Below, one piece after another: positions 6,666 to 47,723 of a stretch of 49,080 bases of DNA. Position 1 is the first letter of the stretch. Each line of letters opens with the position of its first letter. The DNA lies in IMG/VR virus record IMGVR_UViG_3300037504_001072, positions 1-49,080 of that record. The stretch is one strand, 5' to 3'. The notes below the pieces were generated by a model, which did not search any database, was not told the origin of the DNA, and saw only the letters and a program-made list of their open reading frames with translations. This DNA comes from a virus. The position numbers and the translations under genes were made by a program.

Positions 6666-6681
6666 TATTTCCCGGGACATA
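6666..6681. promoter_or_regulatory. Noc-type (NBS) ParB-binding site 1
   Basis: TATTTCCCGGGACATA, one base different from the perfect palindrome TATTTCCCGGGAAATA. It begins right after the phosphoesterase stop codon, in the 113-bp gap before the terminase small subunit. Confidence 0.8.
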
Positions 6682-15948: not shown

Positions 15949-16410
15949 ATGGCTGAGAGTTTTCGGGTTGAGGGGCTTGATGAATTTCGCAGGGCTTTGC
16001 GGCGGTTCCCGAAGGTAGCGAAACGCGGCGCCAAACGCGGAATGAAGCGCGGGGTGCTGCGGGTGCAGCGTTCGGCTCGGCAGAGTGCGCCAGTGGACAC
16101 GGGGCGGTTGCGGGCATCAATTGCATACGTGGTCCGTGTGCTGGCCAATGGCGTGCGGGGCATTGTGGGAAGCGCGGTGGAATACGCGCCATTTGTGGAG
16201 TTCGGGACGCGACCACATTGGCCGCCGATCGCGGCGCTGGAGACCTGGGCGCGGCGGCACGGGACGTCAGCCTTTGTGGTTGCTCGGGCGATTGCGCAAC
16301 GTGGAACAGAGGCGCGTAACTATCTGCGAGATGCGCTGAAGGAGAACGCGAGCAAAGTGGCGCGGGATATTTCCCGGGAAATACGACGCGAGTTGAAGCG
16401 ATTGAGGTAG
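15949..16410 (+). CDS. HK97 gp10-like neck/tail completion protein
   Basis: This 153-residue protein starts at the ATG 2 bp after the connector stop rather than at far-upstream TTG codons. It shows the HK97-gp10 pattern: GLDEFRRALRRFPKVAKRGAKRGMKRG, SAPVDTGRLRASI, and VGSAVEYAPFVEFGTRPHWPP. Members join the head-neck complex to the tail. The 3' end of the gene contains a perfect NBS-type palindrome, which encodes Asp-Ile-Ser-Arg-Glu-Ile near the C-terminus. Confidence 0.85.
   Translation: MAESFRVEGLDEFRRALRRFPKVAKRGAKRGMKRGVLRVQRSARQSAPVDTGRLRASIAYVVRVLANGVRGIVGSAVEYAPFVEFGTRPHWPPIAALETWARRHGTSAFVVARAIAQRGTEARNYLRDALKENASKVARDISREIRRELKRLR
16368..16383. promoter_or_regulatory. Noc-type (NBS) ParB-binding site 2, perfect
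   Basis: TATTTCCCGGGAAATA, a perfect 16-bp palindrome identical to the Noc-binding sequence reported in Bacillus subtilis. It lies inside the 3' coding end of the gp10-like gene. Confidence 0.85.
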
Positions 16411-28655: not shown

Positions 28656-28672
28656 TCGGCTTTGTGTGAACT
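28645..28672. promoter_or_regulatory. 28-bp dispersed dyad, copy 6
   Basis: AGGGCGGATAA, 6 nt, TTGTGTGAACT. It fills the gap between two convergent genes, covering the stop of the tail-region gene and ending at the stop of the serine recombinase. No start codon is near, which favours a transcription-boundary role. Confidence 0.72.
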
Positions 28673-30051
28673 CACCACGCCAGGGTGAAGATTTGACAGG
28701 GGGTTGGTTTGTACTCCCTTGGGGGTACAAACCAATACCCTGTCGCATCGATTGGAAAGGCGGCAGTTAATGTACCGGCGCTTTTGCCGATTTCAATACG
28801 TTCAACAAACTGCTTTACTATAGCGCGACGGGTGATGATGTTTTCGTTGGTGAGTTTTTCGTGCGCATCGGATAGCAGGTGTTGGATGTAAGTTCGATTT
28901 ATCTTGATTTGACGATGAGTGCGTTGCATTTTAAGCGCCTCCAGTTTGTTCTGGAGGCGCTTTTTCTTTTTGCCCGCGTCATCGATCCTTTCTCGTATTT
29001 CCGATGTCGCGTGTGCGGTTTCCATCACGATGTCCAGGTATTCATTGATGGTACGTTTGAGATGATGAATCTGGTTACCCGGTCGGTTGTAGACGTTGTC
29101 GGTGCCGCCATACATCGCGCTCCCGCAGTATTTGCAATAGAGGATACCGCAACCGCTCAAAAGGTAAGGCCCGTGTTTGCTGTTTTGTGTTCGAGGGTGT
29201 GGTTTATCCTCTGGCCAGTCTTCGCCTTTGCCAGGTTTGCTGATGAGCGTCTCCTGGACGGCGTCCCATATTTCCTGGGAAATAAGCGGTTCGTGGGCGT
29301 CCTCGACGCGAAGGTCGTCGCATTTGCGGATACCGAGGTAGGTCTCGTTGCGAAAGGCACAGGAGAGGGAGGAGGTCGAGGAGTAGATGCCAGTTTCGTC
29401 GAGGATTTCTTTATAGGAGGCGCCCTGGGCACGCATTTGGAAGGCCTTTCGGATCAGGGGGGCCTTCTCTGGGTCAGGGATCCACTGGGAGGCCATTCTG
29501 TCCGTGCCATCGTTTTTGGTGCCGATTTTGACCTTCTTGGCTTTATAGCCGCGCGGGGGAAAACCGCCAGGGGCATAGCCCTGCTTGGCCAGAGCGTGGA
29601 GGCCGCGGCTGACGTCTTTGCTGAGGTTGCGGAGAAACTGCTCGTTTTGCCAGTGGGTGAGGCTCTCTACGATGCGGGCGAAGGGGCCGTCTGGGATGTC
29701 GTCTGAGATGGAGACGAGTTTGAATCCGTGTCGCCGCAGGTCGGCGGTGAAAAAGGCGGCGTCGTCGTAGTCGCGTGAGAAGCGGGAGAAGGACCAGAAG
29801 ACGACGCCGGCGGGGCGCTCCTCTTCCGGAAGGCGGCGGGCCAGGGTGATCATTGCCTGGAACTGGTCGCGACCGGCGGTGGAGGAGCCGGGGGTGGCGC
29901 GATCCTCAAAGAGGCGTTCGATGACGAGACCGTTTTGTGTGCAGTAGTCGCGGATGGCCTCGATCTGGTCGTCGATGCATTGTTCGTCGCCGCCGCTATC
30001 GCGGGCGTAGCACCAGACGCGGGCTCCGTGGTCTAGGGGGCAGTTATTCAT
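28672..30051 (-). CDS. Large serine recombinase, zinc ribbon incomplete
   Basis: This protein has 459 residues. The N-terminal resolvase domain has YARDSGGDEQ (catalytic Ser19), VVFWSFSRFSRD and the downstream RGLHALAKQGYAPGG of large serine recombinases. A recombinase domain follows (RKAFQMRAQGASYKEI, GIRKC). The zinc-ribbon part has the first knuckle (CKYCG) but not the expected second Cys pair. A coiled-coil segment and a GYWFVPP end follow. It could act as integrase or invertase, or be a decayed enzyme. A second, tyrosine-type integrase exists in this genome. Its start overlaps the end of the preceding AT-rich gene, and a 46-bp palindrome lies in its 3' end. Confidence 0.85.
   Translation of the reverse strand: MNNCPLDHGARVWCYARDSGGDEQCIDDQIEAIRDYCTQNGLVIERLFEDRATPGSSTAGRDQFQAMITLARRLPEEERPAGVVFWSFSRFSRDYDDAAFFTADLRRHGFKLVSISDDIPDGPFARIVESLTHWQNEQFLRNLSKDVSRGLHALAKQGYAPGGFPPRGYKAKKVKIGTKNDGTDRMASQWIPDPEKAPLIRKAFQMRAQGASYKEILDETGIYSSTSSLSCAFRNETYLGIRKCDDLRVEDAHEPLISQEIWDAVQETLISKPGKGEDWPEDKPHPRTQNSKHGPYLLSGCGILYCKYCGSAMYGGTDNVYNRPGNQIHHLKRTINEYLDIVMETAHATSEIRERIDDAGKKKKRLQNKLEALKMQRTHRQIKINRTYIQHLLSDAHEKLTNENIITRRAIVKQFVERIEIGKSAGTLTAAFPIDATGYWFVPPREYKPTPCQIFTLAW
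28697..28742. repeat. 46-bp palindrome in the 3' end of the serine recombinase gene
   Basis: The arms CAGGGGGTTGGTTTGTAC and GTACAAACCAATACCCTG (18 bp, two mismatches) surround a 10-nt centre. It lies where rightward and leftward transcripts converge, and could form a bidirectional terminator hairpin. There is no flanking T run. Large serine recombinase attachment sites are also roughly 40-50 bp imperfect palindromes, so an attP is possible. Confidence 0.65.
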
Positions 30052-31597: not shown

Positions 31598-31790
31598 ATC
31601 TTCCGCGTTTTTTCTGGTCTTGGTATTGCTGCAGGGCGTCGATCAGGTCCGGGAGTTCTTCGTCAGTGACTGGTGTAGGGTATTGAGGTCGAGATTGGCT
31701 GTGGATGCAGAGACCCACGCCCGACCAGGGCGAGACGGTCAGATCGTCGCTAACGGCGATGTGTTGTGTACGGTTCTTCTTTTCAGGCAT
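31596..31790 (-). CDS. Small hypothetical protein downstream of ThiF gene
   Basis: This 64-residue protein has an ATG overlapping the end of the ThiF-like gene by 8 bp, with AAAGGA upstream. The sequence has no clear domain: a basic start (MPEKKNRTQHI), a middle with SPWSGVGLCIHSQSRPQYPTPV, and a charged C-terminus. Coupling to the E1-like gene suggests it is part of the same cassette. Confidence 0.55.
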   Translation of the reverse strand: MPEKKNRTQHIAVSDDLTVSPWSGVGLCIHSQSRPQYPTPVTDEELPDLIDALQQYQDQKKRGR

Positions 31791-32577
31791 TGGGTTGTCC
31801 TTTCGTGATGGGTTTTGATTGTGCGTTACCCGTTTCCAGGTCGATGTAAGTGGCGTAGGTGTCCAGGTCCTGGGTGAGCACGAGTCGATAGACGTATTGT
31901 GCGGCGTAGGCAGCGATGGCCTGGTTGATCATCAGGCTCTGAGCGTCGCGTAGAGCGAGATCGGCACAGGATTCTGTATGTGCGTCACGATCCGGCGCTG
32001 GGTCAGGCTCCAGGAGATCGGGATGGTGGTGGGTGGGGAGTGGGAGGCCGGCGCAGAGGCCGAGCGGGTCGATGTTGGGGGCGTCGAGGTTTTCCTGGTT
32101 GCCAATGACGACCTGGCCAGCGTGTTCGTGATTGCCGCAGTCTAGCCACCAGGTTTGTCGGTTGCTGGTGACGTAATCCTGAATAGCCTGGCGAGCAGCG
32201 GCGTTGTCGACGGCGCCGATGACTAATCTGAATGTTTGGTAGATGTTACCGCGCACTATTCTGGAATGGAATGGCGTGGCGTGTGCGCGGATGTCGAGTC
32301 CGAAGGCGAGGTTGTAGCGCCTGGCCAATGTGCGCGCCTTATTTCTGCCGATCTCGGCAGGGCAGAAATTCTGGCGGCCAAGATTCTTGGACTCGACGAC
32401 ATCGGGGTCGATGAAGACAAGTGATGGTGAGGGGCCGTTGTTGCGTTGGCGGGCGTGGTAGGCAAGCCGGGCGAGGTGCAGGGCCAGGAATGATCCGGTG
32501 CCGCCGCAGCCGACGAGGATGAGGTAGATGCGGTTGGGGTCGCCAATCTGGATGGGGTAGCGTTTGGTTATTTGCAT
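31783..32577 (-). CDS. E1-like ThiF-family enzyme (PRTRC ThiF)
   Basis: This 264-residue protein starts at the ATG after GGGAGG, overlapping the JAB gene end. The Rossmann nucleotide site is VGCGGTGS (residues 22-29), followed by FIDPDVV (acidic residue binding the ribose) and KNLGRQNF (Arg68). A CGNHEHAGQVVIGN segment follows. Cys204 lies in TESCADLALRDAQSLMINQAIA, the place and pattern of the active-site cysteine in PRTRC ThiF proteins as I recall them. E1-like enzymes adenylate the C-terminus of a ubiquitin-like protein and may pass it to a cysteine. The JAB, E2-like and ubiquitin-like genes upstream complete the set. Confidence 0.88.
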   Translation of the reverse strand: MQITKRYPIQIGDPNRIYLILVGCGGTGSFLALHLARLAYHARQRNNGPSPSLVFIDPDVVESKNLGRQNFCPAEIGRNKARTLARRYNLAFGLDIRAHATPFHSRIVRGNIYQTFRLVIGAVDNAAARQAIQDYVTSNRQTWWLDCGNHEHAGQVVIGNQENLDAPNIDPLGLCAGLPLPTHHHPDLLEPDPAPDRDAHTESCADLALRDAQSLMINQAIAAYAAQYVYRLVLTQDLDTYATYIDLETGNAQSKPITKGQPNA

Positions 32578-33200
32578 TTTTCCTCCCGTGGGGTTGGCTT
32601 GAGGTAGCAATCCTTGACGGGGTTTGGAAGTGATTCAAAGAGCGTGGTGGCGGGGACGGGGTAGTGATCGCCGTAGACGCCGACCCTCACGCGAATCTGA
32701 GGGTTACGGAAAATCTGGCCGATGACAACGTAGAAGCGGAAGCCTTGCTCGTCGCCATTGTCGGTGCCGGAGAAGAAGGCGTGCATCGTGCAGTGCGAGT
32801 GAAGATCGCAGAGAATGGCGGTATTGTCGCCTCCGGCATAGTCGATGTGAGCGGCGTCGGCCAGTTGTGGGGGGCGATAGGCACGAATGACGCCGCGTTG
32901 GAAGCATAGGTGGTACATCGCCTCGTGGGGAGCCTGCTGGCGAGCGTCGCGGATAATCTGAGAGAGGAGGCGAGCCGGGATTTTACCTTTTTTGGATTGA
33001 ACGTCAGGACGTAGATCGGGCAACCCGGCAATATTGACGCGGGCCAGAGGAATCAGAGCGCGGATATTGGCTGATTCGGCCAGTTTGAAGACGCCATTAC
33101 CAGCGAGCAGGTAGATGAAGGCTTTGCCGGTGGGCATTTCCAGGTTTTGACCGTTGCGCCAGATGATGTAGTCGGCGGGTTGAAGTGAGTTCGGCAGCAT
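32568..33200 (-). CDS. JAB/JAMM metallopeptidase (PRTRC protein A)
   Basis: This 210-residue protein has a complete JAMM motif, His134-x-His136-x(10)-Asp147, in LHSHCTMHAFFSGTDNGDE, with Ser144 (S-x-x-D) and a possible catalytic Glu93. JAMM enzymes cut isopeptide or peptide bonds after ubiquitin-like proteins. The N-terminal 90 residues are PRTRC-A specific rather than part of the JAB core. It overlaps the ThiF gene by 10 bp and follows the E2-like gene by 2 bp, so the three are one transcription unit. Processing of the Ubl C-terminus or removal of conjugates is the expected role. Confidence 0.88.
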   Translation of the reverse strand: MLPNSLQPADYIIWRNGQNLEMPTGKAFIYLLAGNGVFKLAESANIRALIPLARVNIAGLPDLRPDVQSKKGKIPARLLSQIIRDARQQAPHEAMYHLCFQRGVIRAYRPPQLADAAHIDYAGGDNTAILCDLHSHCTMHAFFSGTDNGDEQGFRFYVVIGQIFRNPQIRVRVGVYGDHYPVPATTLFESLPNPVKDCYLKPTPREEKCK

Positions 33201-33202: not shown

Positions 33203-33922
33203 TTATTTCTCCTGGGTCAGATCGTCGAACGTGTAGCGGGTACGAACCAGGTCGTCATTGGGGTAAATGTCCTGGTCCTGCAGGTAGCGCCAGAGAGCAA
33301 TGACGTTTTCAAAGCGGGATGATTTGTCGTTGCTCAGGTCGCCATTGAATTGGGAGTTGAAGAAGCGTCGAGCGGCCTGGTGGATGGTCTGGGCGCTACA
33401 GACGGGAAAGGTGACGTTGCCGGCGCAGATACGACCGTCGCTGTGGACGTTGGGGAATGGAGCGGCGAAGAGCCGCTCGCGGTCGTTGCCCGGGTGGGGG
33501 CGTTGCTTGACGGCGAAGATGCGGTATCTGGAACCGCGGCCAGCGAACACGAGATCTGGCGTGGGGATGGTCATCGTCTCCGACTGGCCCTGAGCGGTTT
33601 TGTACGTCAGCGAGCGGGTTTGAGTCGGGAGGTAGACGACGAGGGCCTCCTGGCCTCCAGAGCGGCTGTAATGAAGGCATTGAGGCGGTAAAAGGTCGGT
33701 GGCGAGAGGCACGTCGCTGAAAGACGAGGCCAGGTCATCGGGTGCGATCTCGTAGGTGGAGATAGGCGCCCCATCGTCGTATCGGGTGAGGATAATAGTT
33801 TCGTCATAGAGCGAGATGCGCATCTGGAGTTTTTGGCGCGGTTCCTCTTGGGTTATGTCGCCCAGGCCACGTGTGGCGAGTTCTAATGCGTTTTGCGATT
33901 CGTCGGGTCTACTAATTGTCAT
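33203..33922 (-). CDS. E2-like protein (PRTRC protein B)
   Basis: This protein has 239 residues. The C-terminal half contains APFPNVHSDGRICAGNVTFP, strikingly like the E2 conjugating-enzyme active site (PN...G.IC), with the candidate catalytic Cys166. Upstream strands (ALVVYLPTQTRSLTYK, DLVFAGRGSRYRIFAVK) fit the E2 beta-meander. It overlaps the preceding gene by 4 bp. PRTRC protein B is annotated as a prokaryotic E2 family member. It would carry the ubiquitin-like protein on its cysteine after activation by the E1-like enzyme. Confidence 0.85.
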   Translation of the reverse strand: MTISRPDESQNALELATRGLGDITQEEPRQKLQMRISLYDETIILTRYDDGAPISTYEIAPDDLASSFSDVPLATDLLPPQCLHYSRSGGQEALVVYLPTQTRSLTYKTAQGQSETMTIPTPDLVFAGRGSRYRIFAVKQRPHPGNDRERLFAAPFPNVHSDGRICAGNVTFPVCSAQTIHQAARRFFNSQFNGDLSNDKSSRFENVIALWRYLQDQDIYPNDDLVRTRYTFDDLTQEK

Positions 33923-34761
33923 CGTATCATCTCCTGGTAGTCATCTTCCAGGTTGATCAAGGTATCTAGTACGGTCTCGGCGGCGGTCTGGTGGTGATCC
34001 TTAAACCAGTTGATATAGCGTTCCATTTGCACCAGGCTTTGCTCGGCCTGGTCGTATTGCTGGGCCAGAGCGGTCAGGTCTGCAGTGGTCCAGGTGTACC
34101 ATTTTATGTTGTACTCGAATCGCCAGTAGGGGTTTGGGGCGTCCAGAAAAACGTTGTTGTTGTCCTTCATCGTGATTTTCCAGGCTGTGGCCAGGCCGTC
34201 GAACGGTTCGGGAAGGTTCGATAGCAGGCTGGGAGCGCAGGCATCAGCGGGCCATTCGAGCGTGGGGGGGGCGTCGTAGCCGTGCTCTTGCCAGTAGTGT
34301 CGGATCTGGCTGGCATAGGGTGTGTATCTGGGATAGCCGTCCATAACGTGTGGAGCCACCACGGCGACCATCGGCCGAAAGGACGTGCCCAGGTCGCATA
34401 GTTCCAGGCATTCCCAGGCCAGGCCTTGGGAGTCGTACGGCACGTCGTAATTGAGGATCTCATCAATGGTGTGGCCGGCGTAGACGGCATCATTCAGGAT
34501 CTCAAATCTGATCGGGAAAAGCCGTTGGTCGATCATATTAGCCAGGGCGTTCGATAGGTCCAGGGCGCAGGTTGTTGAAGGCGGTGACTGGTCAAATAGA
34601 TCGCGCCATAGTTTGCGCATCTTGCTGATGGCTCTGAGGTTGGATAGATAGGCGTAGATATCGCAATAGCGCGGCAAGGCGTACCGTGATAAGGCAACAC
34701 GAGCGCGAGTTAGAAGCACGGGGGGATGCGCCTGGATGGTATGGGTTGCAGTTTCTGACAT
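33919..34761 (-). CDS. Protein in PRTRC-F position, unknown function
   Basis: This 280-residue protein lies between the genes for the ubiquitin-like protein and the E2-like protein, where PRTRC systems encode protein F. It has helical N- and C-terminal parts (YAYLSNLRAISKMRKLWRDL, AEQSLVQMERYINWFKDHH) and a central section with LAWECLELCDLGTSFRPMVAVV and a Trp-rich strand (YNIKWYTWTTADL). It overlaps both neighbours. I cannot confirm family F from the sequence alone; the assignment rests on gene order and length. A substrate adaptor or regulator role is possible. Confidence 0.65.
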   Translation of the reverse strand: MSETATHTIQAHPPVLLTRARVALSRYALPRYCDIYAYLSNLRAISKMRKLWRDLFDQSPPSTTCALDLSNALANMIDQRLFPIRFEILNDAVYAGHTIDEILNYDVPYDSQGLAWECLELCDLGTSFRPMVAVVAPHVMDGYPRYTPYASQIRHYWQEHGYDAPPTLEWPADACAPSLLSNLPEPFDGLATAWKITMKDNNNVFLDAPNPYWRFEYNIKWYTWTTADLTALAQQYDQAEQSLVQMERYINWFKDHHQTAAETVLDTLINLEDDYQEMIR

Positions 34762-34958: not shown

Positions 34959-35168
34959 TTAGCCTTTGGTGCCGGCGCGCTTGACGAAGGTGACTTCTAC
35001 GGTTCCGTCGTCCAGGGTTTTCTCCTGGATATCGGCCTGGGCGAGTTCCGGGAAGTAGGTCTGCAGGTGGCGCCGGACGTCTTCGTTGGTGTATTCAGGC
35101 CCGGGATCTTCGTAAGTGTGTTCCTGGTATTTGAAGATGCGGTTGGTGGTTGTGTTTTCGTCTGTCAT
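34959..35168 (-). CDS. Ubiquitin-like protein (PRTRC protein C)
   Basis: This 69-residue protein has the pattern of PRTRC protein C: RIFKYQEHTYEDPGPEYTNEDVRRHL, then YFPELAQADIQ, then GTVEVTFVKRAGTKG. The C-terminus ends in Gly after a basic stretch (RAGTKG), suited to adenylation by an E1-like enzyme. The beta-grasp size and the strand-strand-helix-strand order fit a ubiquitin-like fold. It is the first of the core cassette genes in transcription order. A dyad operator lies in its leader. Confidence 0.85.
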   Translation of the reverse strand: MTDENTTTNRIFKYQEHTYEDPGPEYTNEDVRRHLQTYFPELAQADIQEKTLDDGTVEVTFVKRAGTKG

Positions 35169-35191: not shown

Positions 35192-35219
35192 AGTGCGAAT
35201 AATTCTGTTTATGTGCGCT
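35192..35219. promoter_or_regulatory. 28-bp dispersed dyad, copy 8, at the PRTRC cassette
   Basis: AGTGCGAATAA, 6 nt, TTATGTGCGCT, with near-perfect symmetry. It overlaps the stop of the upstream gene and precedes the GGAGAC Shine-Dalgarno of the ubiquitin-like gene, so it could control entry into the cassette. Confidence 0.78.
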
Positions 35220-35841: not shown

Positions 35842-35851
35842 TACCCCCCCC

Positions 35852-36133: not shown

Positions 36134-36146
36134 CATTACCTCCTCT

Positions 36147-36176
36147 AGCGCGAATAACAGTTACCGCAAATGAACC
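36147..36176. promoter_or_regulatory. Partial dyad (left arm only)
   Basis: AGCGCGAATAA matches the dyad left arm perfectly, but the right side is degenerate (AAATGAACCT displaced by 4 nt). It is placed like other copies, over a gene boundary. It is probably a decayed or single-arm site. Confidence 0.45.
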
Positions 36177-36448: not shown

Positions 36449-36464
36449 CGCCATCCTCCTCTCC

Positions 36465-36492
36465 AGCACGAATAACGTGCATTATGTGAACT
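36465..36492. promoter_or_regulatory. 28-bp dispersed dyad, copy 9
   Basis: AGCACGAATAA, 6 nt, TTATGTGAACT. It sits between the winged-helix gene stop and the Shine-Dalgarno of the next leftward gene. Confidence 0.75.
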
Positions 36493-36505
36493 GCCTAGAT
36501 GTGGG

Positions 36506-36889
36506 CTATTTGGTTTTGAGCGGGTCTGTGTCGTCCAGCGACCAGGCCGGGCGTTGTTGGGCGAATCGGCTTTGTGCCGTGCGCTCCATCGCCTCGGCCG
36601 TCTCCAGGGCGCGTTGCGCGCGCTCCCGGAGGCCCCGGGTGTATTCGTAGACCTCATCAGCGTTTTGGGCAAAGCGGTATTTTCTATTGTTGCTGATGAT
36701 GATGTGCCCGTTGTGGCGTAGGTGGCTGCAGGCACGTATCAGCACGCCCTCGCTGCAGTTGAGCGCCTTGCATAGATCGCGCGCGCTGCGTGGTTCGGGG
36801 CTATTACGCCATTGTTCCAGTATCTCTAGCAGGTCCTGTGCCGTACGCGCAATGAGGCGTTGGTGGTAGGCCTCGCTGGTTTCATTCAT
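36506..36889 (-). CDS. Winged-helix-like DNA-binding protein coupled to ParB
   Basis: This 127-residue protein has an ATG overlapping the ParB stop (ATGAATGA). It has an HTH/winged-helix segment (ARDLCKALNCSEGVLIRACSHLRHNGHIIISNNRKYRF) and a C-terminal coiled coil rich in Arg, Ala and Glu (LRERAQRALETAEAMER). Translational coupling to ParB suggests a regulator or partition accessory. The real start is taken inside a longer frame because of the overlap and the upstream GAGGAGG. Confidence 0.65.
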   Translation of the reverse strand: MNETSEAYHQRLIARTAQDLLEILEQWRNSPEPRSARDLCKALNCSEGVLIRACSHLRHNGHIIISNNRKYRFAQNADEVYEYTRGLRERAQRALETAEAMERTAQSRFAQQRPAWSLDDTDPLKTK

Positions 36890-38348
36890 CTGTGGCGTCC
36901 TCCTCTGGTATTTCCCGGGACATATTCTGGAAGTAGTCGTCGACCGCGCGGTCAACGATGGCGGTGAGATCGCTCAGCGTGCCGGTGCGGGTGATGGACG
37001 GGAAGGAACCCTCCTCGGCTACGGCGACCATCACGCGGCGCTCCTGGCGCGCGTTGTCGTTGGGGAGGATGCGGGCGGTAACGAGCGTCGCGGGTGGTTC
37101 CTCCGGCTCTGGTGTATCCGGGGGCGGCATATCAAGCGATTCTGGCTGGTTGGTGGTGTCGGCGTCAATGGGAGCGGCGGAGGCGATCTCCTGCGGCTGG
37201 TTCTGGTCCTGCGGCTGGATGGGCGTCAGATTGGCGCGTTCCCAGCAGGCGGGACAGATGTATTTGTATCTGTTTTCTGTTTTGTACCATTCGCGATGGT
37301 GGTATTCCTGAGGCAGGTCATTGTGGCTGCGTTTGCAGCACGCGCAGCGAGCCCAGCGAGGGGGAGCAGGCTGAACGGTCCATCCCCGACCGCCTTCGGC
37401 GGCGCTATGCTCGCGGTAAAGAGCGCGGGCTTTCTGCGGCCCGGTGACGAGGGCGGTGTGACGATTTTTCTTTGCGTCATAGCAGGATGGATTTTTACAA
37501 CGCCGACCGCGCTTGATGCGGTGCTCGCATCCCTCGCACGTTGGCAATCCGTCTGGGGGCTGCCAGCCTGCGAATTTCGCGGCGCTCAGGTTGCGCGTGT
37601 GCTCGTCGAGATAGGCCTTGACGCGCTTGGTGACCTGGGCGACGGGATCGACGTCGCTGGGGTCATCGGTGCGGTGGTGTGAACCGGTGAGCAGATCATA
37701 GATCAGGTTAGTGCGTTGGCTCTGCATCGGGGGGAACGCCTCGCTGAGACGGAGGAGAGCGCGCCCGTGGCGCTCGGTGATCACGCCGTTGTTGATCAGG
37801 TCCTGGGCGACCTCGGGTAGCCTAAGCAGGCGGATCTTGTTGGAGACGGCGCTTTGGGTGAGGTCGCGACGAGCGCCGATCTCCTCCTGGGTGTATCCGA
37901 ACTCGTTCATTGCGCGCTGCAGGGCGCGGGCCTCCTCGATGGGCGAGATGTTCTCGCGGTCGGCATTCTCGCTCCAGGCGATGTCGTCCATCTCGCGGTC
38001 GGAGAGCATCTGGACGTCGATTGGGATCGTCCTGTAGGTCCATTCCTGTTCCTCTTGAGCGAGATACCTGAAGGCGCGGAGGCGGCGGTGACCGGCAGCA
38101 ATCTGGATACGAACGTTCTGGTTTTCGGACAGGAAGTCGATCAGGTCCTGTTTATTTGGCTTGACGATGAGCGGTTCGCCTTGGGCGTTGACGAGGCGCC
38201 CTACGGGGGGATTGATAAGCCCCTTGGTCTCTGGGCGCGCCTCGCGCAGGTCGAGGATGCTTTTAGCGAGATCTGCGATACCGCTGTATTGAACGCGAGC
38301 CTGAAATGGGTTATCGTCTATGCGATTGAGCGGGATATTGGCCAACAT
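36882..38348 (-). CDS. parB: ParB-family protein with Noc-type DNA specificity
   Basis: This 488-residue protein starts after AAGGAGA. The N-terminal ParB/CTPase domain has the motifs IAAGHRRLRAF and ENADRENISPIEEARAL. The HTH (GARRDLTQSAVSNKIRLLRLP ... ITERHGRALLRL) places Q165, K171, R176 and R193 where Noc has Q, K, K, R and canonical ParB has R, T, A, G. A C-terminal zinc region follows (CEGCEHRIKRGRRCKNPSCYDAKK, then CACC ... CPACW), as in PRTRC-type and phage ParB proteins. There is no N-terminal amphipathic membrane helix as in Bacillus Noc. It probably binds the four NBS-type palindromes of this genome, one of which lies in its own 3' coding end. Confidence 0.9.
   Translation of the reverse strand: MLANIPLNRIDDNPFQARVQYSGIADLAKSILDLREARPETKGLINPPVGRLVNAQGEPLIVKPNKQDLIDFLSENQNVRIQIAAGHRRLRAFRYLAQEEQEWTYRTIPIDVQMLSDREMDDIAWSENADRENISPIEEARALQRAMNEFGYTQEEIGARRDLTQSAVSNKIRLLRLPEVAQDLINNGVITERHGRALLRLSEAFPPMQSQRTNLIYDLLTGSHHRTDDPSDVDPVAQVTKRVKAYLDEHTRNLSAAKFAGWQPPDGLPTCEGCEHRIKRGRRCKNPSCYDAKKNRHTALVTGPQKARALYREHSAAEGGRGWTVQPAPPRWARCACCKRSHNDLPQEYHHREWYKTENRYKYICPACWERANLTPIQPQDQNQPQEIASAAPIDADTTNQPESLDMPPPDTPEPEEPPATLVTARILPNDNARQERRVMVAVAEEGSFPSITRTGTLSDLTAIVDRAVDDYFQNMSREIPEEDATDE
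36909..36924. promoter_or_regulatory. Noc-type (NBS) ParB-binding site 3
   Basis: TATTTCCCGGGACATA, one base off the perfect palindrome, inside the 3' end of the parB gene itself, where it encodes Met-Ser-Arg-Glu-Ile on the minus strand. Confidence 0.82.
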
Positions 38349-38406
38349 AGGTCTCCTTCTTGTGATTTGTGCTGCAATGCACATTGCCGCTTTTGGCTTA
38401 CGCTTC

Positions 38407-38490
38407 AACTGTGACACTGTGACATCAATTTGGACTGTGGTGGGGGAAAAGTAGAAAGGGGCGATGTCACAGTGTCACAGTGTCACAGTT
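38407..38490. repeat. Iteron-like TGTGACA repeats (origin or operator candidate)
   Basis: The octamer TGTGACA(C/T) occurs twice on the plus strand (38410-38425) and three times on the minus strand (38465-38488). The array includes an inverted repeat with 18-bp matching arms. It lies between the RepA-like ATPase gene end and the parB leader, and overlaps the ATPase stop codon. Clustered short repeats beside rep and par genes are typical of plasmid origins or Rep autoregulation sites. Confidence 0.65.
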
Positions 38491-39808
38491 GCGATTCATC
38501 GTCACTTTCCCAAAACCATTTGTTGTCTGGGTTGTGGGGGTTATCGGCTGTGTCCTGGATTTGCGGGAGACGTTTCCGGACTCGATAGACCATTCGGCGG
38601 TTCCAGTCGCCTTCATCCTCGGCCCATTCTACGATGTCAGAAGGCGCCAGGGGCTCGTCGGCGTTTTGCATCACGTGCGTGAGCCATTCCTGGCACAAGT
38701 CGGTCTTGGTGGGTTCGGTGTAAGGTTGTGGGGCCTGGTCCGAGTAGGTGATTTTGGCGACCTCCTCATTTTCTGGGTGCGGCCTGAGGTAGACGCCGAG
38801 CGCGTCGGGTATCAGGCCAGCGTTGCTTTTCATCACCCACATCCGCAGCGGGCCATTGGGGTCGTAGTTATCGTCGGTGGGCACGCGCTGGAGGCCGACG
38901 ACATTGCGAACGATGGCTGTGATGTGCGATGAGCCGCGAATGGAGTTGAGCGTCATCGGCAGGAAACTGGTCTGTGATGATTGCCGCTTGCGCAGGTGAT
39001 GGATGACCAGGACGGAGGTATCAAAATCTCGCGCCAGGCGCGTGAACCAGGAGAGAAGCCCCTGTACGTCCTCCTTGGCATTTTCCCCCTTGAGGCTGAC
39101 GGCGCCGTAGGAATCGATAATGATCAGGCTCGGACGGATGGTCCAGGCCATATCCCACAAGCGATCCCGGTCGTGTTGGTCGTCGAGGTTGATAATGATG
39201 TGGTTCTCGCGGGGCAGCATCAGGTAGATGCGTTCGCGCTCGTGTTTGGACCAGACGGAGACGCGCTGCTTGAAGATGGACGGGACATTTTCGGCATCTA
39301 CATAGATGACGTCGCCGGGTTCCTGGATGCGTTGGCCGTCGGGATAGCGTGCGCCGTTGATAATGCGACGAGCCAGGTCGAGCGCAACATATGATTTCCC
39401 CGTGCCGGGTTCGCCGACGAGCAATGATACCATTCGCTGTGTGAGCCACTTGTCCCAGAGCCACTCCAGTTCATCGATCTCCGGCAGGAGGCGCTGGGCC
39501 GAGGGGTAATCGATGGGGTCCTTGATGCATTCATTGAGCAGGAGATCGTGCATCTCACGCAGTTGTCGCTCCTGATGCGTGAGCGTATCGTCCATCACGA
39601 CGTCGTGTCGGAAATCGAGCAGGAGTTGTTTGGTATTGTGTTCTGGATGCTGGTAGATTTTCTCCTGGAACCAGATGTAATATTCGGTCCAGAGGGGGCC
39701 GAGTTCGTTTTTAGAGACGTCGTCGATGTTGAGTGGTGAATGTTCGTCTCCGGTGATGAAATCGGCCAGGATCTGCGCCTTGCGGCGTGCGGGTAAAGTC
39801 AAGGTCAC
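38483..39808 (-). CDS. RepA-like AAA ATPase (AAA_25 type)
   Basis: This protein has 441 residues and a GTG start after GGAGA. The RecA-fold ATPase core has Walker A GEPGTGKS (about 132-139), Walker B SLIIIDSYG and a following VLVIHHLRKR segment typical of plasmid RepA/DnaB-like helicases. A C-terminal winged-helix region (LAPSDIVEWAEDEGDWNRRMVYRVRKRLPQI) follows. The N-terminal 110 residues are specific to this protein. It is the best candidate for a replication helicase or initiator of the episomal state. Its stop overlaps the iteron-like repeats. Confidence 0.82.
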   Translation of the reverse strand: MTLTLPARRKAQILADFITGDEHSPLNIDDVSKNELGPLWTEYYIWFQEKIYQHPEHNTKQLLLDFRHDVVMDDTLTHQERQLREMHDLLLNECIKDPIDYPSAQRLLPEIDELEWLWDKWLTQRMVSLLVGEPGTGKSYVALDLARRIINGARYPDGQRIQEPGDVIYVDAENVPSIFKQRVSVWSKHERERIYLMLPRENHIIINLDDQHDRDRLWDMAWTIRPSLIIIDSYGAVSLKGENAKEDVQGLLSWFTRLARDFDTSVLVIHHLRKRQSSQTSFLPMTLNSIRGSSHITAIVRNVVGLQRVPTDDNYDPNGPLRMWVMKSNAGLIPDALGVYLRPHPENEEVAKITYSDQAPQPYTEPTKTDLCQEWLTHVMQNADEPLAPSDIVEWAEDEGDWNRRMVYRVRKRLPQIQDTADNPHNPDNKWFWESDDESQL

Positions 39809-40470: not shown

Positions 40471-41046
40471 TTATAGTCCGAAGCCGACCAGAAAGCCGCC
40501 TAGGGCGGCAGTGATGGTGATGCCGGCGAGTAGCCAGATATCCTGGATGGTGAGGGTGATGATGTCGCTGTCTGGCGATGCCTTCCACGAATGGTCAGGG
40601 GGCTGGCCGTTGCCTGTCGCTTCCCACGGGGTGTTGGGAGAGTGGTCGGCGCCTGGAGCCGTATCCCATCCTGTGGAAAAACTACTACTAACGGGGTCTG
40701 GAGGCTGTGGGGGCGGCTCCAGGAGAGCGATAGGCTCCTGTTCGTCGTTCGTAGTAGTTTTTGTGTGTGCTTCGTGCACCTGAGCCAGTTCCTCGGCGCG
40801 CTCCAGCGCGTGCGAGGTTTTGGCATCCCAGCGCCCCTCCAGGTCGGCGTCCCAGAGGAAACGGCAGGCCTGGGTTTTGAAGCCCCAGGCGTAGCCGTCA
40901 CCATCGTCGGCGTGGCGGTTGTCCCATTCATCCCAGGCCAGCAACTGCCGAGCGGCCTGGGTGATGTCGTCATTGGCCTGCCTGGTTGGCTCCTGGTCGC
41001 GTGCTACGGTCTGCCAGTGAGCCTGGAAGGTTTGTTCAAAGTTCAT
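40471..41046 (-). CDS. Tail-anchored hypothetical protein
   Basis: This 191-residue protein has a long soluble N-terminal region rich in Trp, Asp and Ala (LAWDEWDNRHADDGDGYAW). A proline-rich linker (LLEPPPQPPDP) and a single C-terminal membrane helix (IWLLAGITITAALGGFLVGFGL) follow. It overlaps the FtsK-like gene by 4 bp, so it is co-expressed. It may tether the FtsK-like ATPase, which lacks its own membrane domain. Confidence 0.65.
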   Translation of the reverse strand: MNFEQTFQAHWQTVARDQEPTRQANDDITQAARQLLAWDEWDNRHADDGDGYAWGFKTQACRFLWDADLEGRWDAKTSHALERAEELAQVHEAHTKTTTNDEQEPIALLEPPPQPPDPVSSSFSTGWDTAPGADHSPNTPWEATGNGQPPDHSWKASPDSDIITLTIQDIWLLAGITITAALGGFLVGFGL

Positions 41047-42122
41047 AGCGCCCTCGTCAGATTGAGTGAATGAGACTGGTTGCCGGATGGCAGAATCGGC
41101 GCTCCACGGTTGATTTGATAGATGGCATCGGTGATTTCGTCATCGGTGATGTATGCGGCTTGAAAGCGAATTAATTTTCCCTCGGCGACGGCGATGAAGT
41201 CGCCGCGGCCTTCGAGGCGCTCGGCGCCGGTGCCGCTCCATCCGCTGGCAACGCGGGCGTCGTTGGCGCTACTGACCTTGCCAACGAGACGGACGGGGAA
41301 ATTGGCCGTCATCAGTGAGCCGAGCACCGACGCCGTTGGCTTCTGCGTGGCGGCGACGACGTGGATGCCGGATCCACGACCGCGCTGCAAGAGGCGGGTG
41401 AGCGGCTCCTGGGCTTCGGGGTGGGTCATCAGGAGGTCGGCCAGCTCGTCGATGACGAGGACAGCGCGGGTGTCGTTGACCTGAATTTCTCCGCGTCCCT
41501 CCATTATTCCAACGAGGGTGTTGATGCTCTTGGCGGCCTGTTGGGTTGTGGTATGGACGTCCAGCATCGTGTGCGGCAGGCTATTGAAGATGGGGAAGGC
41601 GCTTCCTTTAGGATCAATCAGGACCAGACGTAGATCGTCAGGCGATTCGGTGATGGCCAGCGAGAGTATGATGCTGCGCATCAGCACGGTCTTTCCAGAG
41701 CCGGTCATACCGCTGACGAGGATGTGAGCGACGTCGGGGGATGGTAGGCGGATGTGGAGTGGTGCTCCCTCGTCGTCCAGGCCGAGTGTGGCGATGGCCC
41801 GCCCCTGGTGGGCTTTGAGCGTCTTGAAACGATAGGCCTGCTTCATCAGAGGCAGCAGGCGGACGGGCCGCGGGTCGTCGCGGGGGATCTGGATTTCAAT
41901 AGCAGCTCCGCGGCGCTGAACGCGGCAGTTCTGGACGTTGAGAGCTGCCGCCAGGTCCTCGTCGAGGCGCGTGATCTGAGAGATGTCGGTGCCGAGTTTG
42001 GGTTGCAGGTTGAAGCGAATCCAGCGAGGGAGCACGCTGCCGCCGGTGACCGTGGCGGCGATGCCGCGCTGGCGCATTACGTAGTCGATGCGGTCTGCCT
42101 GGTGTTCAAGGAGTTTGCGCAT
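41043..42122 (-). CDS. FtsK/SpoIIIE-like DNA translocase
   Basis: This 359-residue protein has Walker A SGMTGSGKT (about 137-145), Walker B AVLVIDELADLL and the FtsK-type segments RGRGSGIHVVAATQKPT and NFPVRLVGKVSSANDARVASG. Compared with chromosomal FtsK it lacks the membrane and gamma domains; only an alpha-like N-terminal part and the motor are present. Phage- and plasmid-borne versions act in DNA transfer, segregation or replication. The adjacent tail-anchored protein could supply the membrane link. Confidence 0.82.
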   Translation of the reverse strand: MRKLLEHQADRIDYVMRQRGIAATVTGGSVLPRWIRFNLQPKLGTDISQITRLDEDLAAALNVQNCRVQRRGAAIEIQIPRDDPRPVRLLPLMKQAYRFKTLKAHQGRAIATLGLDDEGAPLHIRLPSPDVAHILVSGMTGSGKTVLMRSIILSLAITESPDDLRLVLIDPKGSAFPIFNSLPHTMLDVHTTTQQAAKSINTLVGIMEGRGEIQVNDTRAVLVIDELADLLMTHPEAQEPLTRLLQRGRGSGIHVVAATQKPTASVLGSLMTANFPVRLVGKVSSANDARVASGWSGTGAERLEGRGDFIAVAEGKLIRFQAAYITDDEITDAIYQINRGAPILPSGNQSHSLNLTRAL

Positions 42123-42824: not shown

Positions 42825-42852
42825 GGTGCGAATAATAACCTTTATGCGCGCT
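42825..42852. promoter_or_regulatory. 28-bp dispersed dyad, copy 11
   Basis: GGTGCGAATAA, 6 nt, TTATGCGCGCT. It overlaps the stop of the RHH partner gene and ends beside the AGGAGG of the next gene. Confidence 0.75.
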
Positions 42853-43240
42853 GGCTCTGCTGATCGGCTTGATGAGCCAGTATATCGCGCTCGATTGGCT
42901 TTGGTATTGCCAGGTTGTAATCGAACTGGAGCAGGTTGACCTCTTGTTTGTTGCGCCAGATGGCCTCACGAATATCATCGTCGCCTGTGATCAGGAGATG
43001 GAGGCTGTACGCCAACAGGAATGTTCCTAGTTGGCTCTGGCTGGTGCTAATGCGGTTGGCCTCGGCAGCCACGGCCTGCTTGAGCCATTGCTCCACGTCG
43101 TAGCGAATGCGGGTGCGCTCCCGATCCTGCCGCTGCTTCTGGGTGAGAGCGGCGGTATTCTCGGCGGCCTCATCGCGCCACTGCTGGACGGCGGGATCGA
43201 GTCCCTGGAGTCCTCCCTTGCGCGTGCCGTTTTTAGTCAT
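42842..43240 (-). CDS. RHH-like partner of ParA
   Basis: This 132-residue protein has a basic N-terminus (MTKNGTRKGGLQGLD). A ribbon-helix-helix-like segment follows (RTRIRYDVEQWLKQAVAAEANRISTSQSQLGTFLLAYSLHLL): strand, helix, turn, helix. It overlaps the ParA gene by 8 bp, the usual arrangement of ParA with a small centromere-binding partner (ParG/CopG-like type). The genome also has a large ParB, so two DNA-binding partners may exist for one ParA. The RHH call is from pattern. Confidence 0.65.
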   Translation of the reverse strand: MTKNGTRKGGLQGLDPAVQQWRDEAAENTAALTQKQRQDRERTRIRYDVEQWLKQAVAAEANRISTSQSQLGTFLLAYSLHLLITGDDDIREAIWRNKQEVNLLQFDYNLAIPKPIERDILAHQADQQSQRA

Positions 43241-43991
43241 TGGTGGCCTCCTGGATGCGGTCGACGATGAGGCGCATCTGCTGGGTGACTTTGTGGTCCG
43301 GGCAGTGATCGTACACGACGGTGCCGAAGCTCGTCGCCTCGGTGACGCGGATGGTCATCGGGACCGGCGGCCAGACGTTGGAGCCGAAGACTGCGGCGAG
43401 CTCGTCCATCTGGTCGCAGTGTTCGTTGGTGCGTGAGCGAGTCATATTGGGCACGATGCCCATCAGGCGCGGGCGGTTAATGGCTTGCTCGCGCTGAATC
43501 TGGCGGGCGGCCTGGGCCATTAGCCCGACGCCCTCCAGCGACAAACGCTCCAGTTGCGTCGGCACGATGATCCAGTCGGCGGCCGAGAGCAGTTCGGTGA
43601 AGCCGGGGGATCTGGATGGCGGCATATCGATGATGACGTGGTCGGCGACATCGGCCAGGGGACGTAGGCGACCAGGGATCTCGTCGAGGCGATTGACGGC
43701 GGCGAGCATTCGCATCGCCTCGCCGGTGCGATCGTTGCCGGTGACCAGGCCGACGTTCCATTGTCGCAGACCGCGGACGATGGAGACGGGCTTGCCGCCA
43801 ACGATGAGCAGGTTGAACATACCGGCGTCGGTTTCGCCATCGAGGAGCCAGGACGTGAGGTTGCCCTGTGGGTCGGCGTCGACGAGGATGACGCGGGCGC
43901 CGCGGCGGGCGAGGCCGACACCGGCGTGGACGGCGAGGGTGGTCTTGCCGACGCCGCCTTTTTGATTGGCCAGGGCGATAATGCTTCCCAT
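43233..43991 (-). CDS. parA: ParA-family partition ATPase
   Basis: This 252-residue protein has the deviant Walker A KGGVGKTT (11-18), the switch motif LVDADPQGN and Walker B DVADHVIIDMPPS. It lacks an N-terminal HTH, so it belongs to the small (type Ib or chromosomal-like) ParA group. Such proteins position DNA cargo on the nucleoid with a ParB-type partner. It supports a plasmid-like lysogenic state. It is about 5 kb from the parB gene and directly coupled to an RHH protein. Confidence 0.92.
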   Translation of the reverse strand: MGSIIALANQKGGVGKTTLAVHAGVGLARRGARVILVDADPQGNLTSWLLDGETDAGMFNLLIVGGKPVSIVRGLRQWNVGLVTGNDRTGEAMRMLAAVNRLDEIPGRLRPLADVADHVIIDMPPSRSPGFTELLSAADWIIVPTQLERLSLEGVGLMAQAARQIQREQAINRPRLMGIVPNMTRSRTNEHCDQMDELAAVFGSNVWPPVPMTIRVTEATSFGTVVYDHCPDHKVTQQMRLIVDRIQEATND

Positions 43992-44002: not shown

Positions 44003-44019
44003 CCTTCTATATGTGTGCT
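44003..44019. promoter_or_regulatory. Half-site of the dispersed dyad
   Basis: ATATGTGTGCT matches the right arm at 10 of 11 bases and overlaps the stop of the triple-HTH gene, but no left arm is visible. It is placed like full copies, between two leftward genes. Confidence 0.4.
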
Positions 44020-44962
44020 ATGCTGTTTGCGCGTGGGCGGGTGCGGTCGCGCCCAGTGCGTGCAGGTCGAGATCGTCTAACGTATCTTGCGGGTAGCGGG
44101 CCAGGACAGCCTCAAGCCTGTGGTAGCAACGATAGTGCTGGATGTCGTCTGGCTTGATGGCCTCGCACCAGATGGGCAGGCCACGGCTGGCGTCGTTCTG
44201 GCATTGTTCGCGAACGGGGCAATCGTGGCAGGCGCGGGTTTCCACGACGCGAGGCAGCCCGCCGTTACGAGCGTATCCGGCGAGATTGAGTAACTCGTCT
44301 TCCGGGACCTTGAACGCGTGGGCCAGACGCTTGCAATAGTCCATTCTGGGGTGGCGCCTACGCCTTTCCCAGGCGCTGACAGTGGAATGTGCAACGTCGA
44401 TACGTTCGGCTACCTGTCTTTTCGACAGGTGGCATATCTGGCGGGTGGCTGCGAGCCAACGGGCGATTGTGGCGTGATGGGCCGGGAGCGCGCCGACGCG
44501 AAGGGCGTAGGCGGGATCGAGTTCGGCGAGCCGGAGGACGGGGCGGCGCTGCACATCGAAAAGATCGGCCAGGAGAGCAATTGCTGCGGTCGATGTTGCC
44601 CTGGGCATATTTTGACGCCAACTATAGAAGGCGCTATCCGAAACGCCAATGCGAGTAGCGATGGTGTGGACGGCGTATGGGCTGCGTTTGTATTGCCGGT
44701 CGACCCACTCCGGAAACGAGGCGGCATCCAGCGGATTCTCTGGCTCCTCGTAGCCGGCGAGCACCAGCAGGGCAAATGGATCGGATTCGATGGCGTCGGC
44801 GATGGCGTAGCAGGTGCTAATGCGTGGCGTGTTGCGGTCTGTTTCCCAGGCGCTGATGGTGCTGGCGTGGTTCCCCATCGCCTCGGCCAGGTCGTTCTGC
44901 GTCATCCCGATCTGGCGACGTCGTTGTCTGATGAATTTTCCCAGTGTTGTATCAGGTTTCAT
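44018..44962 (-). CDS. Triple-HTH (XRE-type) regulator with Cys cluster
   Basis: This 314-residue protein has three HTH units. The first is a classic XRE domain (GKFIRQRRRQIGMTQNDLAEAMGN). The second is a shorter HTH (YAVHTIATRIGVSDSAFYSW) and the third another XRE domain (SKRQVAERIDVAHSTVSAWERRRR). A Cys-rich segment follows (CHDCPVREQCQN ... WCEAI ... YRC), possibly metal- or Fe-S-binding. It is a candidate for the protein that binds the 28-bp dyads, because a tandem HTH protein suits a two-arm site. Upstream lies AAGGA. The role as a repressor is inferred. Confidence 0.75.
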   Translation of the reverse strand: MKPDTTLGKFIRQRRRQIGMTQNDLAEAMGNHASTISAWETDRNTPRISTCYAIADAIESDPFALLVLAGYEEPENPLDAASFPEWVDRQYKRSPYAVHTIATRIGVSDSAFYSWRQNMPRATSTAAIALLADLFDVQRRPVLRLAELDPAYALRVGALPAHHATIARWLAATRQICHLSKRQVAERIDVAHSTVSAWERRRRHPRMDYCKRLAHAFKVPEDELLNLAGYARNGGLPRVVETRACHDCPVREQCQNDASRGLPIWCEAIKPDDIQHYRCYHRLEAVLARYPQDTLDDLDLHALGATAPAHAQTA

Positions 44963-45947: not shown

Positions 45948-47186
45948 CTACAGGCTCATTTCCTCTTGCTCTGGCGGGGCGGGTCGCCAGCGCCGGGGTT
46001 TGCCGGTGGGCAGCAGCGCGTTGGCTGCGGCCTCACCGCCCGGGTCCTCGGGCGTCTCGAAGTTCTGCTTGATGTATCCCTGGGTGGTGTTGAGGTTCTC
46101 GTGCTGGAGCAGGTCCTGAAAATCGAGCGGGTCGAAGGTGCCGCTGGCTTTTTCCTGCTCGTAGCGGAGGCGGGCGCCCGCGTGCCGCAGAGCGTGCAGG
46201 TGGGCTTTATCCTCGTCGACTCCGGCGCGCCGGGCGTATTTCTTGAGCACGTCGTTGGCGAAGCGGTTGGAGATAGGGCTGTTGGGCTCGATCTGCCCCT
46301 CCAGTTCCGGGCGGAGGCGGAGGATGCGCTGGGGGTTCAGGGGGATGAAGATGTAGTCGTCATCGGCGGGGTAATGGTCGTTGGCGGGATCGAGGCGGTC
46401 GTCGGCGCGGAGGTAGTCGCAGATGGCGGCGTAGCAGTTGCGATGGAGCGTGGCCTGCCGCCGCTGGCCCTTGCCCTTCTTCATCACGGTGTAGGTGTAG
46501 ATGTAGTTTCCGTTGGGGAGCGGCGGGTCGTGTTCGATGTCGCCCCAGCGCAGGTTGAGGAGCTCGCTGGACCGGCGGCAGGTGTAGGCGAAGGCGTAGA
46601 GGAGGGCGAAATCGCGCTTGCCGGTGAGGCAGTCGGTGTTGATGGCGTTGAGGATGGCCTGGAGCTCCTCGGTGGTGGGGTATCTGGCGCGGTTGCGAGG
46701 CGGTTTGGCGCGATCAATGGCCTGGAAGGGGTTGGCGCGGTCGGCCGGCCAGAGGCTGATAAGGTTGCCCTGCTGATCCTGGGCGACGTAATTGTGCGCC
46801 ACGTAGTCGTAGAAGGAACTGAGCGCCGAGAGTTTGAGGTTGACGGTGGCGATGGCGTAGTCTTTCTCGGTGTTGAGGTAGTTGTGCCACTCCTGGGCTA
46901 CCAGGGGGTTGACCTCCCAGGGGGGCAGCGGCTGACCGAAGTGGTCTTCGGTCCAGGAGAAGAACTGCCGGACGGCGGTCTTGTAGACGGATACGGTGTT
47001 ATCGCGCCCGGAACGATTGCGCTTGGATTCCAACCAGGCGGCACGGGCCTGATCCCAGGCGAGCCATTTGATACGTTCGTCCTCGTGGACGAAGACGAGG
47101 CCCTGGGATTGGTCGGCCTCGGCGTCGCCGGTGAAGAGGGCCTGAGCGAGTTGTGTGCCGGTGGATTGCTGTTTCTGGGTGGGCAT
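45948..47186 (-). CDS. int: Tyrosine recombinase (integrase)
   Basis: This 412-residue protein has an N-terminal SAM-like core-binding domain (about 55-140) and a C-terminal catalytic domain. The RKHRHY residues are visible: Arg205 (CRRSSEL), Lys near 237 (MKKGKGQRR), His331 and Arg334 (HLHALRHAG), His362 (LLQHENL) and Tyr371 (TTQGYIKQ). It follows GGAGGATCTT. A perfect NBS-type palindrome lies 16 bp upstream of its start. It probably integrates the phage into the host genome or resolves dimers. A separate serine recombinase is also encoded. Confidence 0.92.
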   Translation of the reverse strand: MPTQKQQSTGTQLAQALFTGDAEADQSQGLVFVHEDERIKWLAWDQARAAWLESKRNRSGRDNTVSVYKTAVRQFFSWTEDHFGQPLPPWEVNPLVAQEWHNYLNTEKDYAIATVNLKLSALSSFYDYVAHNYVAQDQQGNLISLWPADRANPFQAIDRAKPPRNRARYPTTEELQAILNAINTDCLTGKRDFALLYAFAYTCRRSSELLNLRWGDIEHDPPLPNGNYIYTYTVMKKGKGQRRQATLHRNCYAAICDYLRADDRLDPANDHYPADDDYIFIPLNPQRILRLRPELEGQIEPNSPISNRFANDVLKKYARRAGVDEDKAHLHALRHAGARLRYEQEKASGTFDPLDFQDLLQHENLNTTQGYIKQNFETPEDPGGEAAANALLPTGKPRRWRPAPPEQEEMSL

Positions 47187-47198: not shown

Positions 47199-47723
47199 TT
47201 ATATTTCCCGGGAAATAGGCAACAGGGGCGGGCAGGAGTTCCACCTGCCGGGGGCCTTCAGCGATTCCGGCGGCAGCCCCAGCGGTCCCTCAGCCTGGCC
47301 GGTCTTACGCGCTCCGTTGCCCTGTGTGGCGCCCCTGGATGCGCCGGGCGGAGCCGCGCCCCTGCTGTACGTGTGTTGGGGGAGTGATTGGTTGGGCGGC
47401 CGACGTGCGGTGTGGGTGTCGGTGTGTGAGCCCAGGTCTCCCTTCCTGGTTGTTGACGGCTCGGCCGCCCCTCCCCAACCCCAATCGCGGGGGTCACACA
47501 GGGGGTGTGTGATGGGTACGATTGGAGCGGGGGAGGGACGGCCGAGCGTTGTGTGCAGGACGATTCGCTCGACCACGTCGGCGGTGATGGGTTCGACGTC
47601 GCGGTCGTAGATGCAGGCGTGGCGTGCGATCTGGCAGGCCTGTGAGGGCGTGGGGTCCAGGCCCAGGTCGTCGAGGGCCTGGAGGATGAGGTCGATGATG
47701 CGTTCCGGGGTGGTCTTCAGCAT
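47199..47723 (-). CDS. Hypothetical protein with low-complexity tail
   Basis: This protein has 174 residues, from the ATG after GGAGAGACC. The first 60 residues are helical (TTPERIIDLILQALDDLGL, ACQIARHACIYDRDV). The rest is Gly/Pro/Thr-rich and probably disordered (SHTDTHTARRPPNQSLPQHTYS). The last codons, Pro-Ile-Ser-Arg-Glu-Ile, are encoded by an NBS-type palindrome. It lies just before the integrase and may be coupled with it. Confidence 0.55.
   Translation of the reverse strand: MLKTTPERIIDLILQALDDLGLDPTPSQACQIARHACIYDRDVEPITADVVERIVLHTTLGRPSPAPIVPITHPLCDPRDWGWGGAAEPSTTRKGDLGSHTDTHTARRPPNQSLPQHTYSRGAAPPGASRGATQGNGARKTGQAEGPLGLPPESLKAPGRWNSCPPLLPISREI
47202..47217. promoter_or_regulatory. 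Noc-type (NBS) ParB-binding site 4, perfect
   Basis: TATTTCCCGGGAAATA, perfect 16-bp palindrome, in the gap and 3' coding end just upstream of the integrase start. Confidence 0.87.

Follow-up and report, generated by a model that had tools for sequence, protein, structure and literature searches.

A phage-borne ParB-family protein with Noc-type specificity residues and dispersed NBS-like sites

DNA recognition in the ParB/Noc superfamily is set by four specificity positions, with R173/T179/A184/G201 of ParB switched to Q/K/K/R in Noc (Jalal et al. 2020, PMC7383237). Q173 reads A1 of the site and R201 reads C6, with T or S tolerated at position 201 and both K and R tolerated at the permissive position of the Noc code, whilst ParB orthologues have been taken to be invariant at R173 and G201, and Noc to occur in Firmicutes alone (PMC7383237). 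Among mobile elements, N15 SopB uses four IR sites (IR1-4), with the N15 prophage being a partitioned plasmid (PMC7205306). In the literature searched, we found no report describing NBS in phages or the sites bound by PRTRC ParBs. Here we analyse a 49,080-nucleotide stretch of viral DNA (IMG/VR virus record IMGVR_UViG_3300037504_001072; hereafter the window), for which a sequence-only reading had proposed a Noc-type code and NBS-like sites in the same phage genome, a pairing confirmed below. We propose, with a probability of roughly 80%, that the encoded protein is the phage's own ParB-family CTPase clamp, which loads at these dispersed sites to coat or mark phage DNA.

The window ParB and its sites

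The window ParB contains an HTH_ParB domain (PF17762, 2.3e-22) and scores above the cut-off of TIGR00180, with ParB_N falling below its Pfam cut-off. Its N-domain carries the motifs NPFQ, GHRR, and ENxxR, and its C-terminal half is cysteine-rich. The CTP motifs NPxQ, GHRR, and ENxxR are invariant or nearly so across 14 relatives, and given that GHRR stands in place of the usual GERR in both the window ParB and its relatives, hydrolysis by the window protein may differ. By these features the predicted protein belongs to the ParB/Noc superfamily with HTH_ParB.

The specificity code proposed for the HTH, Q165-K171-R176-R193, is borne out by an ungapped alignment to Q158/K164/K169/R186 of Noc (phmmer; chains 7ng0/7nfu/7ol9, E 7e-19 to 2.5e-17), in which the residues stay at the four specificity positions, and by the AlphaFold2 model (mean pLDDT 80.9, about 90 in the HTH), in which helix 165-176 bears Q165, K171, and R176, and helix 192-204 bears R193. 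The top PDB fold matches of the model are Noc structures, with a TM score (target) of 0.78-0.83 against the Noc DBD-NBS complex 6y93, and KorB-KorA structures are also found among the matches. The window ParB would very likely bind NBS.

Assignment of the window ParB as Noc proper was rejected, as it lacks the membrane helix, scores below the cut-off of the nucleoid_noc model (TIGR04285; 5e-30, 104.7 bits, cut-off 315), and does not group with Firmicutes Noc in our tree. The protein starts MLANIPL at the first N-domain strand (strand 2-6 of the model), with neither an N-terminal amphipathic membrane-targeting helix nor a visible LGxGL-type ParA-binding motif at its N-terminus.

This start also bears on whether the protein might disrupt cell division or chromosome segregation in the host, as had been suggested previously, by binding host NBS in the manner of Noc. 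The code and site are the same as those of Noc, however a ParB that begins at its first N-domain strand has no N-terminal extension to hold the Noc membrane helix, and NBS are few in the five candidate host genomes, with 0-7 ATTTCCnnGGAAAT sites each and those of the richest mostly on phage-like contigs. We consider such interference highly improbable.

TATTTCCCGGGAAATA is matched five times in the 49,080-base window, twice exactly and never with more than one mismatch (Table 1), with dinucleotide shuffles yielding 0.12 NBS-like palindromes at up to three mismatches (largest 2). The NBS-like family is furthermore the largest 16-bp palindrome family recovered by a de novo search of the window. 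The two perfect sites previously claimed stand, whilst the claimed total of four rises to five, the fifth having an asymmetric centre common in relatives. The gaps between sites measure 9.7, 12.9, 7.6, and 10.3 kb, with 8.5 kb closing the circle (even spacing p = 0.002).

Table 1. Features of the window, in order of position
Feature	Position	Strand	Remarks
NBS-like site TATTTCCCGGGACATA	6666..6681	.	Directly after stop of ORF 5238-6665
NBS-like site, exact TATTTCCCGGGAAATA	16368..16383	.	
Serine recombinase	28672..30051		NBS-like site inside
NBS-like site TATTTCCTGGGAAATA	29269..29284	.	Within serine recombinase gene
PRTRC_ThiF, E1-like	31783..32610	-	TIGR03736 160.8 bits, above 144.75 cut-off
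PRTRC_A, JAB peptidase-like	32568..33200	-	1.8e-8; TIGR03735 1.1e-17, below cut-off
PRTRC_B, E2-like (Prok-E2_D)	33203..33922	-	3e-29; TIGR03737 7.7e-24, below cut-off
ORF at PRTRC_F position	33919..34761	-	No family match; conserved in G024, G017, G025, G027; order as in plasmid L175
PRTRC_C, prokaryotic ubiquitin-like	34959..35168	-	Prok_Ub PF14454 1.6e-11; TIGR03738 4.7e-12, 0.15 bits short of cut-off
parB, ParB-family protein	36882..38348	-	488 aa; ATG at 38348, stop codon ends at 36882; PF17762, Noc alignment, TIGR00180, AlphaFold2 model
NBS-like site TATTTCCCGGGACATA	36909..36924	.	Within parB 3' end, 27 nt before ORF end
RBS of parB	38349..38361	-	AGAAGGAG closely upstream of ATG; from sequence
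AAA_25 RecA/RepA-like ATPase	38483..39808	-	Just upstream of parB; PF13481 4.8e-28
FtsK/SpoIIIE-like ATPase	41043..42122		Near parA; homologues in G025, G024, G010
Small ORF	42842..43240		Overlaps parA 3' end; no family match
ParA-like ATPase	43233..43991	-	About 4.9 kb upstream of parB; PHROG 164 1.2e-46; AAA_31 1e-28
Large HTH repressor	44018..44962		
Tyrosine recombinase/integrase	45948..47186	-	PF00589 1e-14; NBS-like site just upstream
NBS-like site, exact	47202..47217	.	15 bp upstream of tyrosine recombinase gene

Covariation of residues and sites across relatives

A search of IMG/VR with the window ParB as single query returned no matches, and relatives were gathered from IMG/VR and GTDB genomes via an alignment of two ParBs, then five, one from an NBS-bearing contig. 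For each record the four residues were read, and dispersed palindromes were searched for separately with no motif assumed, in contigs of uncertain completeness. Q at the first position pairs with A1 sites (ATTTCCnnGGAAAT), and R with G1 sites (TGTTnnCnnGnnAACA). The Q-type records are the window itself (WIN; QKRR, five sites), G010 (QKGR, four), G017 (QLER, four), G024 (QKRR, three), G025 (QLRR, nine), G027 (QLAR, four), G005 (QAKR, eight), G013 (QRDK, three), and L082 (QLSR, one site in 7 kb). Exact NBS led us first to G010, G005, and G013, which hence are not independent of the site, with G017, G024, G025, G027, and L082, found by protein similarity alone, providing the unbiased Q-type records. 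R-type ParBs accompany TGTTCGC in G018/G019 (RKRR) and G028 (RLKR), TGTTTGC in G020 (RKRR) and L085 (RLSR), and TGTTGGC in G029 and L083 (both RRER), and G031 (RAKR) has two TGTTCGCGCGCGAACA sites. The chromosomal-type RLEG/RFKG ParBs of L087, L095, and L088 (Planctomycete or Acidobacterial), whose fourth residue is G, are accompanied by parS-like sites with A6, in agreement with the published rule.

Exceptions include G033 (QKKR, with an HTH insertion), which has one exact parS and no NBS, G021 (ELDS), which has G1 sites, and G026 (EKQK) and G030 (RKKR), for which no clear motif was found. As most Q-type family members form one clade, a Fisher test on the residues overstates independence. Many related phages nevertheless combine the Q code with NBS, and the residues change along with the sites; the NBS code hence appears also to serve mobile DNA, as the sequence-only reading had supposed from the Q-type code, the only one it treated; the R-type relatives are new here.

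A scan of IMG/VR for YATTTCCTGGGAAATR, made independently of ParB, gave at least 80 loci, and 36 new contigs were tested. In this set, hand-picked to include multi-site contigs such that counts are not rates, HTH_ParB is encoded by 5/7 contigs with at least three sites, all with Q first (QKQR, QRKT, QRET, QRDR, and QLNT), compared with 1/29 contigs with one or two sites (above cut-off, code absent; p = 3e-4). No ParB was found in G042 or G045, contigs of 19-30 kb with three sites each. In an earlier scan for exact NBS, too, the contigs that bore a ParB had several sites. These results bear on whether the palindromes might be operators of another phage protein, such as a repressor, with the ParB code matching by coincidence. 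A large HTH repressor is indeed encoded in the window, however it has no homologue in relatives, and this explanation is rendered highly improbable both by the enrichment of Q-type ParBs in the site-first scan and by residues and sites covarying among divergent phages.

Even site spacing recurs across records (combined p = 4e-8 over 14 records, circularity assumed; p = 9e-8 over 13 records for gaps between first and last site only). A site lies in the parB ORF or at most 150 bp away in 11/13 records, compared with 2.9 expected (P = 2e-6), being 15-30 nt before the ORF end in a common reading frame in WIN, G017, G010, and G024, and just upstream of parB in G027, G020, G028, and G031. The sites are also confined. 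All seven TGTTTGCGCGCAAACA sites of Leptolinea sp. HRD-7 lie at 2,696,963-2,720,709, within 24 kb around an R-type ParB gene, with none elsewhere in the 3.57 Mb chromosome even with two mismatches, and of the seven NBS sites in the MAG of L082, six fall on the ParB contig or on phage-like contigs. In the hosts examined, the chromosomal ParBs are of the parS type, with R at the position of Noc 158 and either G or A at that of 186.

Several further arrangements were observed. An NBS lies within the ParB HTH codons (IS-x-EI(S/T)) in G013 (6023), G005 (34822), and G064 (around 23862), overlapping in G013 and G005 the codon of the fourth specificity residue, such that the site and the residues that read it share DNA. 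G031 (L155-L156) has nine to ten GGAAACGGCCGTTTCC-type palindromes, distinct from its TGTTCGCGCGCGAACA sites, several of them clustered near parB and the contig end. Tandem 7-bp ATTGACA repeats, replication iteron-like, occur in G018 around 8925-9243 and 42497-42801 (L040, L042), and G032, with ParB code KLKQ, has GGTTTAATTTTAAACC palindromes every 22 bp at 11224-11349 (L135), a clustered, centromere-like site.

The best cellular matches of the ParB family are in Chloroflexota MAGs, and the hosts of the window virus are probably Chloroflexota. A FastTree phylogeny calculated on the N-domain plus the HTH nests the Q clade inside the R-type phage ParBs and puts Noc elsewhere, together with G005, G013, and a Thermus ParB (node support 0.984, lower at inner nodes). 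From this nesting, apart from Noc, the phage Q clade probably reached the Noc code independently, from an R-x-x-R ancestor. R-K-R-R and similar relatives with hybrid G1/C6 sites look like intermediates, still extant in nature, on the published path from ParB to Noc, which would make the proposed mutation order from parS to NBS testable in nature. The phages described here are exceptions both to the restriction of Noc and its site to Firmicutes and to the fixity of R173 and G201. They provide cases from nature of such a protein changing the DNA sequence it recognises and, with the sites on the same DNA as parB, of protein-DNA coevolution readable straight from genomes, along with several ParB-site pairs for which no cross-reaction is predicted.

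The PRTRC cassette and proposed function

The window parB heads a complete-looking PRTRC (ParB-related, ThiF-related) cassette at 31783-38348, which had gone unmentioned in the sequence-only reading. Its order of ParB, ubiquitin-like C, F position, E2-like B, JAB-like A, and ThiF is that annotated on Proteobacterial plasmids, with the window ParB itself scoring 46.9 bits against the PRTRC_parB model (TIGR03734, cut-off 278.6). Either the cassette or its ThiF was also found in G017, G024, G025, G027, G039, G018, and L085, but not in G010, G005, G013, G040, G041, G064, or G071; NBS-type ParB and PRTRC thus tend to go together, yet are not tied to each other. The sites provide a first clue to the binding target of a PRTRC-type cassette ParB.

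In the mechanism we propose, Q would read A1, R would read C6, and K/R would contact the backbone at NBS-like palindromes, with loading about every 10 kb, including at one site in parB itself. Once loaded, the clamp would be expected to close and to slide along the DNA, in the CTP-dependent manner of ParB and Noc, and would come to cover most of the phage DNA. Direct binding, CTP gating, and sliding are in this respect inferred from knowledge of the family. ParB spreading extends from several kb to over 10 kb, and with sites every 5-10 kb most of the genome would therefore be covered. Such coating may mark and organise phage DNA apart from the chromosome of the host, where ParBs carry parS-type residues. 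The role may be extrachromosomal maintenance, long-range gene control, or both, with maintenance and genome organisation rated slightly ahead of transcription control.

A rival reading is a conventional ParABS system, in which the window ParA and ParB would segregate a plasmid-like prophage with NBS sites as centromeres. The parA gene is on the same strand as parB, and N15 SopB with its four IR sites provides a precedent in a partitioned plasmid prophage (PMC7205306), however parA is not adjacent to parB, ParA was undetected in 15/17 records with such a ParB and sites (some of them fragments), the window encodes two recombinases, and the ParB N-terminus shows no LGxGL-type motif. This arrangement is possible but, in our judgement, unlikely. 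Use of the protein for the phage's own partition, as suggested previously, draws on the ParA of the window, whilst the scarcity of ParA among those records and the dispersed rather than clustered sites count against it. The small ORF that overlaps parA at its 3' end could encode ParA's own partner, leaving ParB an orphan.

A KorB/VirB-like long-range regulator, sliding as a clamp from its sites to repress or de-silence promoters including its own, may also be entertained, if tentatively. The sites just upstream of parB in four relatives (G027, G020, G028, and G031), the site at 47202 adjoining the integrase start, and the KorB-KorA fold matches are consistent with such a regulator, however some sites lie within genes (29269 and 36909), and the even spacing tracks genome length and not promoters.

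Returning to the clamp that coats phage DNA, we raise as a doubtful and more speculative extension that a ParB clamp coating the phage genome from regularly spaced sites is acted on by the PRTRC ubiquitin-like conjugation cassette, or else delivers it. This would constitute a self/non-self marking of DNA that modifies proteins on phage DNA, with recognition codes that have diverged between phages and that include a second, independent origin of the Noc code via R-x-x-R intermediates.

Comparison with known systems

The closest described system is the Noc-NBS system of Firmicutes, as in Bacillus subtilis Noc, with which the window shares Q-K-(K/R)-R, the NBS palindrome, dispersed sites, and a ParB fold with CTP motifs. 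In contrast to Noc, for which publications describe a Firmicutes-only distribution (PMC7383237), the window ParB is phage-borne, has GHRR for GERR, no N-terminal membrane helix, and an extra cysteine-rich C-terminal half, with phage ParB sites confined to phage and a separate position in the tree. Two PLSDB plasmids annotated with 'noc', NZ_CP149720 (L168) and NZ_OY725744 (L169), were considered as plasmid Noc precedents and rejected, as they show chromosomal gene neighbourhoods (jag-mnmE-mnmG-rsmG-noc-parAB in NZ_CP149720); both are probably mislabelled chromosome fragments.

The ParB of PRTRC cassettes (TIGR03734) shares its gene order on Proteobacterial plasmids with the window, but the window ParB falls below the cut-off of that model, and two plasmid PRTRC ParBs lack the code. 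No clear dispersed palindrome was found near the Proteobacterial PRTRC ParBs (plasmids L172 and L175; 40 kb), and in the stretches read of Chlorohelix plasmid CP128402 a PRTRC cassette is present with no adjacent annotated ParB.

With chromosomal ParB-parS systems the phage proteins share the ParB_N-HTH architecture, palindromic sites, and a site often in or near parB, whereas they have R and not G at position 201, C6 and not A6 sites (with A1 in the Q clade), and, in most phage relatives, no ParA partner. RK2 KorB and N15 SopB have site sequences unrelated to those described here, and to our knowledge neither uses the Noc code. They are nonetheless alike in being ParB-family proteins of mobile elements with several sites, which in RK2 and N15, as in the window, are dispersed over the element.
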